In this document: piece by piece, positions 59,657-64,000 of the stretch
Layout of the letters: each line of letters opens with the position of its first letter
Numbering within the stretch: the stretch's first letter is position 1
NCBI RefSeq assembly: GCF_000746025.2
Contig: NZ_CP045798.1
Span: 2,897,501-2,961,500, forward strand
Length of the DNA: 64,000 bases
Direction of reading: 5' to 3'
Origin: Thermanaerosceptrum fracticalcis
GTDB taxonomy: Bacteria > Bacillota > Peptococcia > DRI-13
The notes under the pieces: model-generated
Seen by the model: only the letters and a program-made list of their open reading frames with translations
Databases searched by the model: none
Told to the model about the DNA's origin: nothing
Program-made: the position numbers and the translations under genes

Positions 59657-60223
59657 ATGGAGCAGGCAAATATGATAAAAAAAACGCTATTCATTAATAC
59701 AGTGTTTTTGGCCGTCCAAACCCTAATCATAACAGGATTAGTATTAAGGAAGCAAACCCATTATGCTGTGGATACCGCAGTTGTCTTAGCTGCCTATTTG
59801 GCTTTTATCTATTTTGAAAAGAAAAAACAAATTCACATTGAAAATCATCTAAGAGTATTAGTGCTCTTGAGTCTTATTGGCCATAACTTAATCGGTGAAT
59901 ACTTCGGCGCTTACAAGGGGCAGTATTTTGATAAGGCTCTACACATGTTTGGTGCTTTCTCTTTTGCCCTCTTTGCTTATTCCTTCTTAAACAAGACCAT
60001 ATATCTTCCTGTTACCTCATCATTACAGGTAGTTATTTTTATTACCCTGTTAGGCATTGGTTTAGGTACTCTTTTCGAGATTCTTGAATTTGCTTTGGAT
60101 AAAATGTTCCAAGTGCAAAAGCAAAATGGTTTAACAGATACCAACTTCGACCTTATTTCTGATACCCTTGGTGCGTTATTGGCCGGTTTTTATGGTGCAC
60201 ACAGGCAAATAAAAATCAAATGA
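59657..60223 (+). CDS. Multi-pass membrane protein, possibly DUF2238-like
   Basis: The 188-residue protein has about five hydrophobic spans. Conserved-looking polar residues lie within or near membranes: HNLIGEYFGAY, FDKALHMFGAFSFA, FEILEFALDKMF and DTNFDLISDTLGALLAG. This combination resembles the DUF2238 membrane family, whose function is unknown. ATG 59657 or ATG 59672 could be the start; GGAG before the latter supports the shorter form. A hairpin (60218-60241) follows it. Confidence 0.65.
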   Translation: MEQANMIKKTLFINTVFLAVQTLIITGLVLRKQTHYAVDTAVVLAAYLAFIYFEKKKQIHIENHLRVLVLLSLIGHNLIGEYFGAYKGQYFDKALHMFGAFSFALFAYSFLNKTIYLPVTSSLQVVIFITLLGIGLGTLFEILEFALDKMFQVQKQNGLTDTNFDLISDTLGALLAGFYGAHRQIKIK

Positions 60224-60334: not shown

Positions 60335-60358
60335 ACTTTTTTGTCGAAAAATTATAAA
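60335..60358 (+). promoter_or_regulatory. Spo0A-box-like site and -10 element ahead of the agr-type locus
   Basis: TTTTGTCGAAAA contains TGTCGAA (60342-60348), the core of the Spo0A recognition sequence. TATAAA (60353-60358) lies just downstream and would be a -10. The site is therefore placed at the -35 region. Control by Spo0A is an inference from motif and host type. Confidence 0.5.
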
Positions 60359-60389
60359 TGGTAAATCTTACTATGGGAGGATACATTAC

Positions 60390-60830
60390 ATGCAGATTCC
60401 ATTTCTGTCATGGCTGTTACAGGGAGTGCCCGAATCAATTGCTATGGTTGCCTTTGTATTTGCCTTGGCAAGCCAGCCATTTACTCGTAAGATTATATTG
60501 ATTGGTCTTCTATATGGAATAAGTGCCTATATTATCCGGTTTTTGCCTTTCACACCCGGGGTACATATGGTAATATTGGTATTTATTTTAGCCTTTTTGA
60601 CAGCTAAATATGCCGATATAGAGTTTCGCAAAACTATATTATACAGTTTCCTCGCTTTTGTTTTACTTATGATTTATGAGATGTTTTTCTTCTGGTTACA
60701 CAGTAGCTTAAATATAGTATCACCGGAAAAATTAAAGAACGATGTCATGCTAAGAACAATTACTGGGCTACCACAGGTAATTATGATGTTTATCACCGCT
60801 TGGGGTATAGGAAAAATACGTGCGAAATAG
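60390..60830 (+). CDS. Small multi-pass membrane protein, sensor-domain-like
   Basis: The 146-residue protein has about five membrane spans (IPFLSWLLQGVPESIAMVAF at the start, GLPQVIMMFITAWGIG at the end) and no catalytic domain. Its sequence pattern reminds me of the membrane part of GHKL-type sensor kinases found with Agr systems, but standing alone. ATG 60390 follows GGGAGG. It lies between a Spo0A-box-like site and agrB and may be a receptor or accessory of the peptide signal; unproven. Confidence 0.6.
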   Translation: MQIPFLSWLLQGVPESIAMVAFVFALASQPFTRKIILIGLLYGISAYIIRFLPFTPGVHMVILVFILAFLTAKYADIEFRKTILYSFLAFVLLMIYEMFFFWLHSSLNIVSPEKLKNDVMLRTITGLPQVIMMFITAWGIGKIRAK

Positions 60831-60870
60831 GATTAAGTTTAATGAAAAGGCTCCGATAATATTATTTAAG

Positions 60871-60905
60871 AAAAGTATGGTATTTTACTATACTTTTTCT
60901 TTATT
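60871..60905 (+). terminator. Terminator-like hairpin between the membrane gene and agrB
   Basis: AAAAGTATGGTA (60871-60882) pairs with TACTATACTTTT (60886-60897) with one G-T pair, running into TTCTTTATTTT. Since no separate promoter is clear for agrB, it may limit rather than block read-through. Confidence 0.7.
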
Positions 60906-60967
60906 TTGGAAGGAAAATGGAAAAATATATAGAATTAAGTAACCTAAAAGAGGGAATGGAGGAAAAT

Positions 60968-61555
60968 ATGTCTTACTCAGGGTTAAGTACACGCATCAGT
61001 TCATATTTAGCTCGAGAATTAAAATACTGCGAGGAAAAAAAGAAAATTTTGGCATATGCTGTGGAAAGTATATTAATAACAGTACTGGGTTTTGCCATTA
61101 TTATGTTTATCGGTCTGTTACTAAGAGCGCCATATGAAACCTTTTTTGCAGCTGTGGCCGCTGGTACATTAAGAAAATTCAGCGGGGGAGCACACTTTTC
61201 TACACCTGCAAAATGCTTGCTTACCGGCGGTTTGGTCTACCCACTATTCGGATTGACAGTAAAAAATGTCTTACTGGATTATGTGAAAGAACCCATGTTT
61301 TTAACAGTTGTTTTAGCTGCAGCAGCTGTAAGCTTTTACATGGTTTTCAAATATGCTCCGGTGGATTCGGTGAACAAACCCATAGTCTCGCCAGAATTTC
61401 GAAAAAAATTATTTAGGGCCTCAATAATCACAGTGTTAGTGTTTTATGCAGTGGCATTTTTAAATTATCGTACAAGTTTAGGATTATCCATATTAGGGGG
61501 AATTTTTCTTCAGGCAGTTACCTTGCTGCCCCCCCTCAATGGGCAAAGGAGGTGA
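60968..61555 (+). CDS. agrB: Accessory gene regulator protein AgrB-like, peptide-processing membrane protease
   Basis: AgrB cleaves the C-terminal tail of AgrD and forms the cyclic thiolactone. The 195-residue protein has the catalytic pair in GGAHFSTPAKC, giving His76 and Cys83, nearly the positions in Staphylococcus AgrB (77 and 84), and several membrane spans. ATG 60968 follows GGAATGGAGG; the earlier ATG 60917 adds a stretch not usual for the family. agrD follows after five bases. No agrC or agrA is in the window. Confidence 0.9.
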   Translation: MSYSGLSTRISSYLARELKYCEEKKKILAYAVESILITVLGFAIIMFIGLLLRAPYETFFAAVAAGTLRKFSGGAHFSTPAKCLLTGGLVYPLFGLTVKNVLLDYVKEPMFLTVVLAAAAVSFYMVFKYAPVDSVNKPIVSPEFRKKLFRASIITVLVFYAVAFLNYRTSLGLSILGGIFLQAVTLLPPLNGQRR

Positions 61556-61560
61556 ATATC

Positions 61561-61692
61561 ATGGGTAAGATCAAAATGTTGTTGCTAACCCTTACATCCA
61601 CACTGTTATTCTTAATTGCTACTGTTAGTAGCGCTTTTGCGTGTAGCGCATGGTACCATCAGCCCGAAACTCCCAAGAGCCTCATCAAGTAG
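61561..61692 (+). CDS. agrD: Cyclic lactone autoinducer peptide precursor, AgrD-like
   Basis: A 43-residue frame: an amphipathic, hydrophobic leader (GKIKMLLLTLTSTLLFLIAT), then ACSAWYHQPETPKSLIK. Cys28 with W31 and Y32 fits a five-residue ring CSAWY, and the QPExPxSL tail is the AgrB cleavage signal typical of clostridial AgrD peptides. ATG 61561 follows AAAGGAGGTG at the end of agrB. Ring size and N-terminal trimming are inferred. Followed by a GC-rich hairpin. Confidence 0.88.
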   Translation: MGKIKMLLLTLTSTLLFLIATVSSAFACSAWYHQPETPKSLIK

Positions 61693-61726: not shown

Positions 61727-61740
61727 AGGAGAGGGTTTTG

Positions 61741-62054
61741 TTGAAGAGATTTGAAATTAACAGAAACGAAAAAATCGAGGAATACGTTTTTATTACCCAG
61801 GTGCTCTTTTATTTTTTAATGGGAATCTTAGTTATACGGGTGTTTCATATACCTTATGATACCCCTTTGCTTTGGAACGGAAACGGGTTGCTACTGCTTT
61901 TTGCCTTCTTAGGCGTGATTTTTATAAAGGCTATGCAAAGGGAAAAAAATATTGCCAGTAAAAAAATCGATTATCTTGTTAATGCCATATACCTCATTAT
62001 GGGCTGTTATCTTTTAATCCATGAACGGGAAACATTTTTTAAAATACTTTTAGT
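61741..62054 (+). pseudogene. 5' part of a membrane diguanylate cyclase gene split by an insertion sequence
   Basis: The first 105 codons encode a cytosolic start (KRFEINRNEKIEEYVF) and three membrane spans, ending FFKILLV exactly at the IS target site. TTG 61741 follows AGGAGAGG (TTG 61738 is too close). The present frame reads on into the IS and stops at 62079-62081. The 3' part resumes at 63691. Removing the IS and one copy of the 7-bp duplication joins the halves in frame (LLV-MPVIVRSI). Confidence 0.85.
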
Positions 62055-63683
62055 CAGTAGTTATGCAGTTTCAGGATAATTTTTCCAATTCCATAACCTA
62101 AGTTCCAAAGAATGTGGCCAGAATTTATCAATAAGCCTTGAAAAACGCTGGGTTGCCGTGTCAAAATAGACTTGGATCAACTGCTCGCAACAGCGGATCC
62201 GACAACCGGCGTTGAAGAAGTACCTTATCACTTCGCAGAGGGAGGGGGCTTGTTCGGCGCCTTCTTTATTGCACTCCCAAGAGGCATAACAAAGAAGGGT
62301 CTTCGCTGTAAACAAGAGCTCCACATGTGCGAAATGAGCTGTTTCAGACTGAGCATAGCAAGATGTTAAACCAAGATTCTGTTTAGCGGTGCGGTAAAAA
62401 ACTTCTATTCTCCATCGTTTAGCATAGGCAGTTGCAGCTTCTTCCGGCGTATCTACGCGATTGCTTATCAGGAGATACGCATCCTTGAAGGTTGCCGGGC
62501 ATTCTTCCTCCGGAAGAACTATGCTGCCCTCGACAGCCTGCTTCTCATAAGTGGCTGCAATGGCAGCTATGGGTAAAAAACGTTGTCTAGTAATGGGTTT
62601 TCCCTTGCGTGTTAAGGTCTCATAGGGCATTTTGATGTAAATGTCCGGAATACTGAGAACCGATTCTTTGCCAAGGACCCGAAGCTGGGAATAAACTTCT
62701 CGCAGCAGTTGCTTCGGATTAAGTTTAATGTAGCGTTCCTTTCCTAGTACCGGGTCGTAGATTTTCCTGAATAGCGCCGTGTTACGTTTGGCTTTGGTAA
62801 CCCAGTCAAAATTTTGACCCATCAGCCAGTTCAGGAACTTTTTACACAAAAACCAGCGATCCATGGCTACCCAGAGTCTGGCCTTGTTCAACTGACGCAC
62901 CTCTGCGAGCATCTGTTTAGCAAGATCAAGCTTGGTTTGTTTTTCATTCTCCTGGCCATTTTTAACCCAGAAGCGCCACAGCATAGGATATTCGAGCCCA
63001 TTCTTTAAGACAGCCAGGGTCGACACAAGATTAATGCACCATACATGGCACTTATCCGAACTGTCAAAGAGCCAACAGAGAAAGGGGATTTTTTTACCGT
63101 GAGGATGCTCAATTTTAGTATCGTCTAAGGCAATGATATCGCCGTCGGTCAGCCTGCTATCCGTGTTTTCTTGTAACCTGGCAAATCTGCCCAAAGAGAA
63201 CCGGAGCCACTGAAAGGGCTTGGAGAGAAACCGGCTGAAGGCACTTTGAGAGATGATTTGCCCGGAAAGCAGTTGTTGTAAAAATGGAGCTTCCGTTGAA
63301 AACTTAGCATTTTGATTTGCAGAACTTGAATGATTAGCAAGGCCGCAGATGTAGGCAAAAGCCAGGAGCCACGCTGGAATTCCGGAGTGTTTGCGTATTC
63401 CGGACTGGGAAAACAGCAGAGACAGGTCAAACAAATCCCAAATTGTCTTGAGTACCGGGATTCCGGCACCTTGACCGTGATCCTTTTTTTCGAAAGTTGG
63501 TTTACACAGTTTCTTCATCAACATCACCCATATCGCTAGAGTGATGGTAAAAAATACCATCCAAAGCGATTATGGGGGCTTTTCGAAAAAGTCAAGACCT
63601 TTTTTGTCGAAAATTAGGATCTTTTTTAAAATATTTTTTGAGTTATTATTTTCTATTTATTTCCACCAACTGCATAACTCCTG
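62055..63683 (-). mobile_element. IS4-type insertion sequence, 1629 bp, complete
   Basis: The ends are CAGTAGTTATGCAGTT (62055-62070) and, read inward from the right, CAGGAGTTATGCAGTT (63683-63668): 16-bp inverted repeats with one mismatch. They are flanked by identical 7-bp target duplications TTTTAGT (62048-62054 and 63684-63690). One transposase gene fills the element on the reverse strand; its stop codon lies inside the left inverted repeat. The intact structure and perfect duplication suggest a recent insertion. Confidence 0.9.
62061..63560 (-). CDS. IS4-family DDE transposase
   Basis: The 499-residue protein has the DDE triad: Asp in IALDDTKIEHPHGKK, Asp in LWVAMDRWF, and Glu in KRWRIEVFYRTAKQNLGL, the YREK signature of the IS4 group. 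The first codon may be ATG 63560, or ATG 63524/63518 behind GGGTGAT. A promoter-like TTGACT with CATAAT (15-bp spacing) lies near 63570-63597 on the reverse strand. The frame is intact, so the element is probably able to move. Confidence 0.9.
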   Translation of the reverse strand: MVFFTITLAIWVMLMKKLCKPTFEKKDHGQGAGIPVLKTIWDLFDLSLLFSQSGIRKHSGIPAWLLAFAYICGLANHSSSANQNAKFSTEAPFLQQLLSGQIISQSAFSRFLSKPFQWLRFSLGRFARLQENTDSRLTDGDIIALDDTKIEHPHGKKIPFLCWLFDSSDKCHVWCINLVSTLAVLKNGLEYPMLWRFWVKNGQENEKQTKLDLAKQMLAEVRQLNKARLWVAMDRWFLCKKFLNWLMGQNFDWVTKAKRNTALFRKIYDPVLGKERYIKLNPKQLLREVYSQLRVLGKESVLSIPDIYIKMPYETLTRKGKPITRQRFLPIAAIAATYEKQAVEGSIVLPEEECPATFKDAYLLISNRVDTPEEAATAYAKRWRIEVFYRTAKQNLGLTSCYAQSETAHFAHVELLFTAKTLLCYASWECNKEGAEQAPSLCEVIRYFFNAGCRIRCCEQLIQVYFDTATQRFSRLIDKFWPHSLELRLWNWKNYPETA

Positions 63684-63690
63684 TTTTAGT

Positions 63691-64000
63691 AATGCCTGTT
63701 ATTGTCAGATCTATTCAAGCAGGGTTAAAGGAAGGTTTTCTATGGGCTTCAATTTCTACCCTTGGTTTATTAATAACTACCATTATTGATAGCTCCTATC
63801 TAGAAATTGATATTATGGTAACTGGTATCATCTGGCTCCTGGCCTGGCTTTTGGGGAAAATGTCCGATACTGAGACCCAGATCAGAGAGGAGTTGCAGAA
63901 TCTGGCTTATCTGGATGGGCTTACAGGTATTTATAACCACCGCAGTTTTCATAGTATTTTAGATGAACAGCTTTTGCGCGCAAAAATCGAAAATAAGAGT
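63691..64000 (+). pseudogene. 3' part of the split diguanylate cyclase gene (continues past the window)
   Basis: Open frame to the window edge: MPVIVRSIQAGLKEGFLWAS, two membrane spans (ISTLGLLITTIID and GIIWLLAWLLG), a linker helix, then LAYLDGLTGIYNHRSFHSIL, the start of a GGDEF domain. The GGDEF motif itself lies outside. With the 5' part it encodes a membrane protein of about five spans, a 5TM-type sensor, that would make c-di-GMP. As it stands it lacks its start and first spans. Confidence 0.85.

Follow-up and report, generated by a model that had tools for sequence, protein, structure and literature searches.

What does an Agr-type peptide signal act on when the operon that encodes it holds neither of the usual receiving components? 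Known Agr systems act via a kinase and a transcription factor, and both are missing from the locus considered here, in which an agrB-agrD pair stands between a small membrane protein (SMP) and a gene for a c-di-GMP enzyme. The window, meaning the whole stretch of 64,000 nucleotides that was analysed, corresponds to G000:C1:2897501-2961500 of a single-contig genome of 3.8 Mb.

The agrB-agrD pair and its surroundings

In positions of the window, the operon begins with the following features and continues with the enzyme gene from 61738:

60390..60830, + strand: SMP, a 146-aa membrane protein of five helices (homologues fused to GHKL kinases; AlphaFold2)
60968..61555, + strand: agrB, predicted peptide-processing membrane protease (PF04647, E 1.1e-39, 136 bits against a cut-off of 23)
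61561..61692, + strand: agrD, predicted 43-aa precursor of a cyclic autoinducer (TIGR04223, E 1.7e-10, 40.8 bits against a cut-off of 19)
61642..61656, + strand: codons of the predicted five-residue ring CSAWY, then H-QPETP (sequence and C-x4-[YH]-QPxxP alignment)

An agrB-agrD pair had been proposed in a sequence-only reading of this DNA, and the profile matches bear it out, together with a motif check that places the catalytic-type residues His76 and Cys83 of AgrB within GGAHFSTPAKC. The AgrD features named in that reading, a candidate five-residue ring CSAWY and a QPExP tail, were recovered as well, with CSAWY followed by HQPETP; an alternative in-frame start of agrD is possible at the GTG at 61552. 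Across eight close orthologues of AgrD the columns S24, F26, A27, C28, Q34, P35, P38, K39, S40 and L41 are invariant and most of the ring residues are variable, as would be expected if the signal varies from species to species.

That no kinase or response regulator follows the pair was confirmed for ~12 kb downstream, where neither a kinase nor an AgrA-type LytTR regulator is encoded. An AgrC histidine kinase was found neither in the operon nor in the GGDEF/HD-GYP orthologues of the window's order, and no LytTR regulator adjoins agrBD in the orthologous GGDEF/HD-GYP loci, so that the agrC-agrA pair envisaged earlier as possible counter-evidence is absent there too. The statement that agrC and agrA are missing holds for the locus but not for the genome, which carries an agrC/agrA-type set elsewhere (C1:42201-45076), in the order SMP2, GHKL kinase, agrB, agrD and LytTR regulator. 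An Rfam scan of the window returned tRNAs, a T-box and an L10 leader, and no c-di-GMP riboswitch near the locus. Just upstream of the operon, 59657-60223 encodes a 188-aa membrane protein with weak similarity to DUF2238, which lies outside the conserved module in the loci examined.

A putative sensor half encoded as a separate protein

The AlphaFold2 model of SMP (pLDDT 94.9) shows five membrane-length helices. Among 22 homologues, residues P14, E15 and H59 are invariant, while R50, P53, G57, E97 and P128 are kept in at least 90%. The protein had been likened to the sensor region of a kinase, a comparison that fused homologues substantiate: in 25 of the best 150 matches SMP makes up the N-terminal end of a long frame (440-496 aa), and all nine long-frame loci that were fetched encode SMP-GHKL kinases, accompanied within the fetched stretch by agrB and agrD in eight cases and by a LytTR regulator in eight. 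One fused kinase aligns to positions 16-398 of the 414 positions of staphylococcal AgrC (NF046015), with 69.8 bits against a cut-off of 500; in its kinase part it also matches the solved AgrC module from S. aureus. The relation to the AgrC profile runs via these fused clostridial kinases, but SMP alone gives no match to NF046015. The split kinase of the second agr locus in this genome aligns to AgrC only from position 140 on, and SMP2, whose stop codon overlaps the start of that kinase, is the missing front part. Since the split kinase lacks the front of AgrC and the fused kinase covers its full length, SMP takes the place of the first half of AgrC; it is the putative sensor half of an AgrC-type receptor in the form of an independent protein.

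Comparison of SMP with Pfam, NCBIfam and PDB sequences gave nothing credible, and matches to MreD, Orbi_NS3, rhodopsin and TrkH were too weak and were taken as noise. Foldseek returned no match at E < 1 for SMP or for the membrane anchor described below, VIA structure comparison with SMP gave nothing convincing, and no relative was found in the viral contigs searched. In several genomes SMP is repeated two or three times before a single agrBD. Three tandem SMP genes precede one agrBD in L036:9074-10635 and in L040:8883-10491, and the divergence of the copies suggests receptors for different peptides.

An interrupted GGDEF/HD-GYP gene

The gene downstream of agrD had been described as a c-di-GMP synthase. 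A c-di-GMP gene is indeed present, but it is bifunctional (GGDEF and HD-GYP), starts at 61738 and is split by an insertion sequence; the earlier description covered only the part beyond the element. The features are:

61738..62054, + strand: 5' part of the anchor-GGDEF-HD-GYP gene, encoding helices 1-3 and part of the 4th of a six-helix anchor (homology to intact genes)
62048..62054: left target-site duplication, TTTTAGT (7 bp)
62055..63683, - strand: insertion sequence of 1629 bp, with ends CAG[T/G]AGTTATGCAGTT (ends and duplication, compared with a second copy at L005:7429-9061)
62061-63560: DDE transposase within the insertion sequence (DDE_Tnp_1)
63684..63690: right target-site duplication, TTTTAGT (7 bp)
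63691..64000, + strand: 3' part of the same gene, encoding the rest of the anchor and the start of GGDEF (homology to intact genes)

The 3' part extends to G000:C1:2962526, ~1 kb past the window. Reading across the empty insertion site restores one frame that matches intact homologues of 540-560 aa, and beyond the element an open frame of 484 aa retains RYGGEEF, HDIGK and HHENFDGSGYP intact. The second copy of the insertion sequence (L005:7429-9061) shares these ends and is flanked by a 7-bp repeat of different sequence, TACCATA. It interrupts another gene (L005:6845-9250), and the element has thus moved more than once in this genome.

Because the insertion disrupts the anchor-coding region, signal and output are probably uncoupled in this genome, or the circuit no longer works at all, so that the circuit in the window may be a dead one. 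The cell could nevertheless still produce a truncated protein of 484 aa that retains the two catalytic domains. We put at a little under even the chance that the locus is a decaying remnant, its output destroyed by the insertion and agrBD persisting by chance or as a signal for neighbours: in favour is the insertion into the anchor-coding part, with its perfect 7-bp target duplication, whereas the frames of SMP, agrB and agrD are intact and the 484-aa frame keeps both catalytic domains. Decay at this locus is compatible with the explanation preferred below, which concerns the module in general.

Conservation of the layout in Bacillota

SMP was searched for in the order and class of the window, and larger regions were then fetched. 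Ten fetched loci outside this genome carry, in this order, SMP in one to three copies, agrB, agrD and an anchored GGDEF protein; the GGDEF-HD-GYP gene is complete in nine of them and runs off the contig in the tenth, and agrB is frameshifted in one (L043). The question raised earlier, whether the same neighbours recur in other genomes, is hereby answered, since the arrangement SMP-agrB-agrD-anchor-GGDEF-HD-GYP is kept in orthologous loci.

With a profile of 22 SMPs, the family was detected in at least 150 of 398 genomes that sample the phylum evenly. Annotation of two 20-region sets and two further sets with profiles built in this work yielded 50 intact anchor-GGDEF-HD-GYP genes from 47 genomes. 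Within 3 kb of these genes lie agrB in 49 of 50 cases and SMP in 45 of 50; the set was gathered via SMP or anchor matches, and the agrB adjacency of 49/50 is in part a product of that selection. Seven of the 47 genomes fall outside the even phylum sample, leaving agrB beside an intact anchored enzyme gene in at least 40 of the 398 evenly sampled Bacillota genomes, with SMP-agrB-agrD-enzyme as the usual order. In a search for anchors that took no account of agr genes, at least 51 of the 67 strong matches have a strong SMP match within 4 kb, and several of the anchors classed as far from SMP are accompanied by agrB, agrD and an SMP that is broken or weaker. Such a layout goes far beyond chance, given that dozens of genera share the gene order, and its conservation led us to reject the reading as an orphan agrBD pair lying beside an unrelated c-di-GMP gene. 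The earlier suggestion, that of an Agr-type circuit whose receptor or output is unusual, gains support from this conserved neighbourhood, its function being read from sequence.

In the 50 relatives with an intact gene, HHExxxGxGYP is present in all and HD[IV]GK in 47, GG(D/E)EF is intact in 38 and degenerate in 12 (13 loci in a wider list), and an RxxD inhibitory site occurs in two. Because the HD-GYP motifs are kept while GG(D/E)EF is often degenerate, c-di-GMP breakdown by HD-GYP is the safer guess for the main output. The GGDEF domain is possibly active in many members, and its motif is intact in this genome.

The membrane anchor and a proposed two-part receptor

The N-terminal ~170 aa of the enzyme form a predicted six-helix domain (pLDDT 89.6), referred to here as the anchor. 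No Pfam family matches it above cut-off; MASE6 appeared in one anchor out of several scanned, at E 1.7e-4 and below its cut-off. In predicted fold, the anchor resembles the six-helix domains of ImcA (VIA Z 9.6 over 165 residues, with an rmsd of 4.8) and, at Z 6.0-6.9, those of membrane adenylyl cyclases, both weak likenesses given that Z < 13 is weak for helical bundles. In sister operons such as L082, L085 and L089, PAS/GAF histidine kinases carry the same anchor at the front. In the SMP tree, outputs switch between GGDEF enzymes and PAS/GAF kinases at least 8-9 times among the anchor-linked SMPs, and repeated changes of this kind are needed in the AgrB tree as well.

Three loci (L048, L160 and L161) have SMP beside an anchored histidine kinase with agrB and agrD out of reach. 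Such pairs place SMP on the receiving side and argue that SMP and the anchor together form the receiving unit. The same three loci are possible eavesdropping receivers. Against such a unit, some anchor proteins sit away from any SMP or agr gene. This genome also has a lone histidine kinase with the same anchor and no agr genes nearby (G000:C1:482980-484200, L179), a possible second listener.

We therefore consider it fairly likely, from the gene content and motifs described above, that the module is a variant of Agr quorum sensing in which the peptide would act via a split receptor on a c-di-GMP enzyme, chiefly on its HD-GYP phosphodiesterase. AgrB would cut and cyclise AgrD into a thiolactone peptide with the ring CSAWY, which outside the cell would be recognised by SMP and the membrane anchor of the enzyme, acting as a two-part receptor. 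Binding would shift the enzyme between making and breaking c-di-GMP, with no phosphorelay involved, most likely through the always-conserved HD-GYP phosphodiesterase. With less assurance, though still leaning in favour, we propose a widespread class of Agr systems in which a thiolactone would directly control a membrane c-di-GMP phosphodiesterase/cyclase via a receptor composed of a stand-alone AgrC sensor half and the enzyme's anchor, again without phosphorelay, and in which c-di-GMP enzymes and PAS/GAF kinases would be exchanged as outputs behind the same receptor.

Two other assignments of SMP were weighed. It could assist AgrB in the making or export of the peptide, for example as an N-terminal peptidase such as MroQ, which has this role in peptide making in Staphylococcus, rather than form part of a receptor. 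The position of SMP directly upstream of agrB would fit such an accessory, as would its polar residues in or beside membrane helices (Glu15 and His59 invariant, Arg50 nearly so). We regard this as very improbable, given that SMP is the N-terminal domain of sensor kinases, accompanies anchored kinases in loci with no agrB or agrD nearby and is present in 2-3 copies before a single agrBD in several genomes. Alternatively, peptide recognition might fall to the anchor alone, with SMP in a purely modulating role. In its broader form, with the anchor as sole peptide receptor and SMP serving in immunity, damping or the recognition of foreign peptides, this alternative appears unlikely: the anchor is common to the GGDEF/HD-GYP enzymes and the kinases of these operons, its predicted fold is weakly like the ImcA and adenylyl cyclase domains, and tandem SMP copies could recognise different peptides, but very few of these loci lack SMP, and AgrC-type kinases have an SMP homologue as their sensor half. 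The split receptor of SMP and anchor is thus preferred.

Relation to known systems

The locus shares with S. aureus agr the AgrB and AgrD proteins with the His/Cys protease motif, a Cys-led ring and a conserved tail, as well as a sensor half akin to the one in AgrC-type kinases. It differs in that its operon has no GHKL kinase or LytTR regulator, the sensor half is a separate small protein and the output is a GGDEF/HD-GYP enzyme. MASE-type anchored diguanylate cyclases, such as ImcA of P. aeruginosa, likewise have a six-helix domain before GGDEF, with weak similarity in predicted fold, but the anchor described here reaches no Pfam cut-off, and we know of no agr genes associated with MASE-type cyclases. 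The agr1 locus of C. difficile consists of agrB1-agrD1 without agrC and agrA, and resembles the present locus in having agrBD without a linked receptor pair. In an agrA mutant of C. difficile R20291 three c-di-GMP genes were underexpressed (PMC3754575). There, too, agr influences c-di-GMP, but the link is transcriptional and indirect, whereas here the enzyme gene is part of the signalling operon.

The open papers searched gave no description of agrBD and a GGDEF or HD-GYP gene in one operon; subscription papers and preprints lay outside that scope, and the novelty of an agr-c-di-GMP operon is provisional. If the proposed mechanism is true, an operon-encoded peptide quorum signal would act directly on c-di-GMP turnover and join two major regulatory systems in one step, a link that would span many Bacillota families (at least 40 of the 398 sampled genomes). 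The small, separable receptor pieces would moreover give access to the way in which AgrC-type sensors recognise cyclic peptides, a question hard to address in an intact kinase.

Two kinds of agr locus

The complete agr set at C1:42201-45076 belongs to the clostridial SMP-GHKL loci, in which the kinase is either split or fused. These share the SMP family, AgrB and AgrD with the locus in the window, but have a GHKL kinase and LytTR regulator as output, a Ser-led ring and SMPs of a separate clade. Ser is the first ring residue of AgrD in all 15 GHKL/AgrC-type loci, and Cys takes that position in 57 of 63 loci of the SMP-anchor kind, PAS/GAF-kinase sisters included (Fisher p ~1e-11; the loci are related and the value is uncorrected for relatedness, so that it is not strictly a probability). 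In the SMP tree all GHKL-linked SMPs fall into one group of 21 (support 100/98), which includes the SMP of L047, a locus without a kinase, and the anchor-linked SMPs lie apart.

These data bear on the possibility that a conventional two-component system, either that of the second locus (SMP2-GHKL kinase and LytTR regulator) or an unlinked kinase, senses the peptide and that the c-di-GMP gene is a mere neighbour. A complete agr set in the same genome makes this conceivable, as does the PAS/GAF kinase found in or beside the same operon in several relatives. The adjacency of agrB to the GGDEF/HD-GYP gene is nevertheless kept in 47 genomes, and the difference in ring chemistry and the separate SMP clades of the two locus types argue against the second locus sensing the peptide made here, so that we judge such a system improbable and retain the two-part receptor. 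If the Cys/Ser split follows receptor type, it provides a simple rule that can be tested.

Traces of further agr loci were also observed. About 5 kb upstream of the intact second locus, at C1 ~37.4-38.6 kb (L005:5421-6600), lies a truncated copy of that locus's kinase-agrB-regulator part, in which agrB ends after ~140 residues. In another genome of the same genus (G001), L047:9792-11324 encodes an SMP, an AgrD-like tail (SWSAFYQPEIP) and a LytTR regulator, with no kinase or agrB found in this draft genome.
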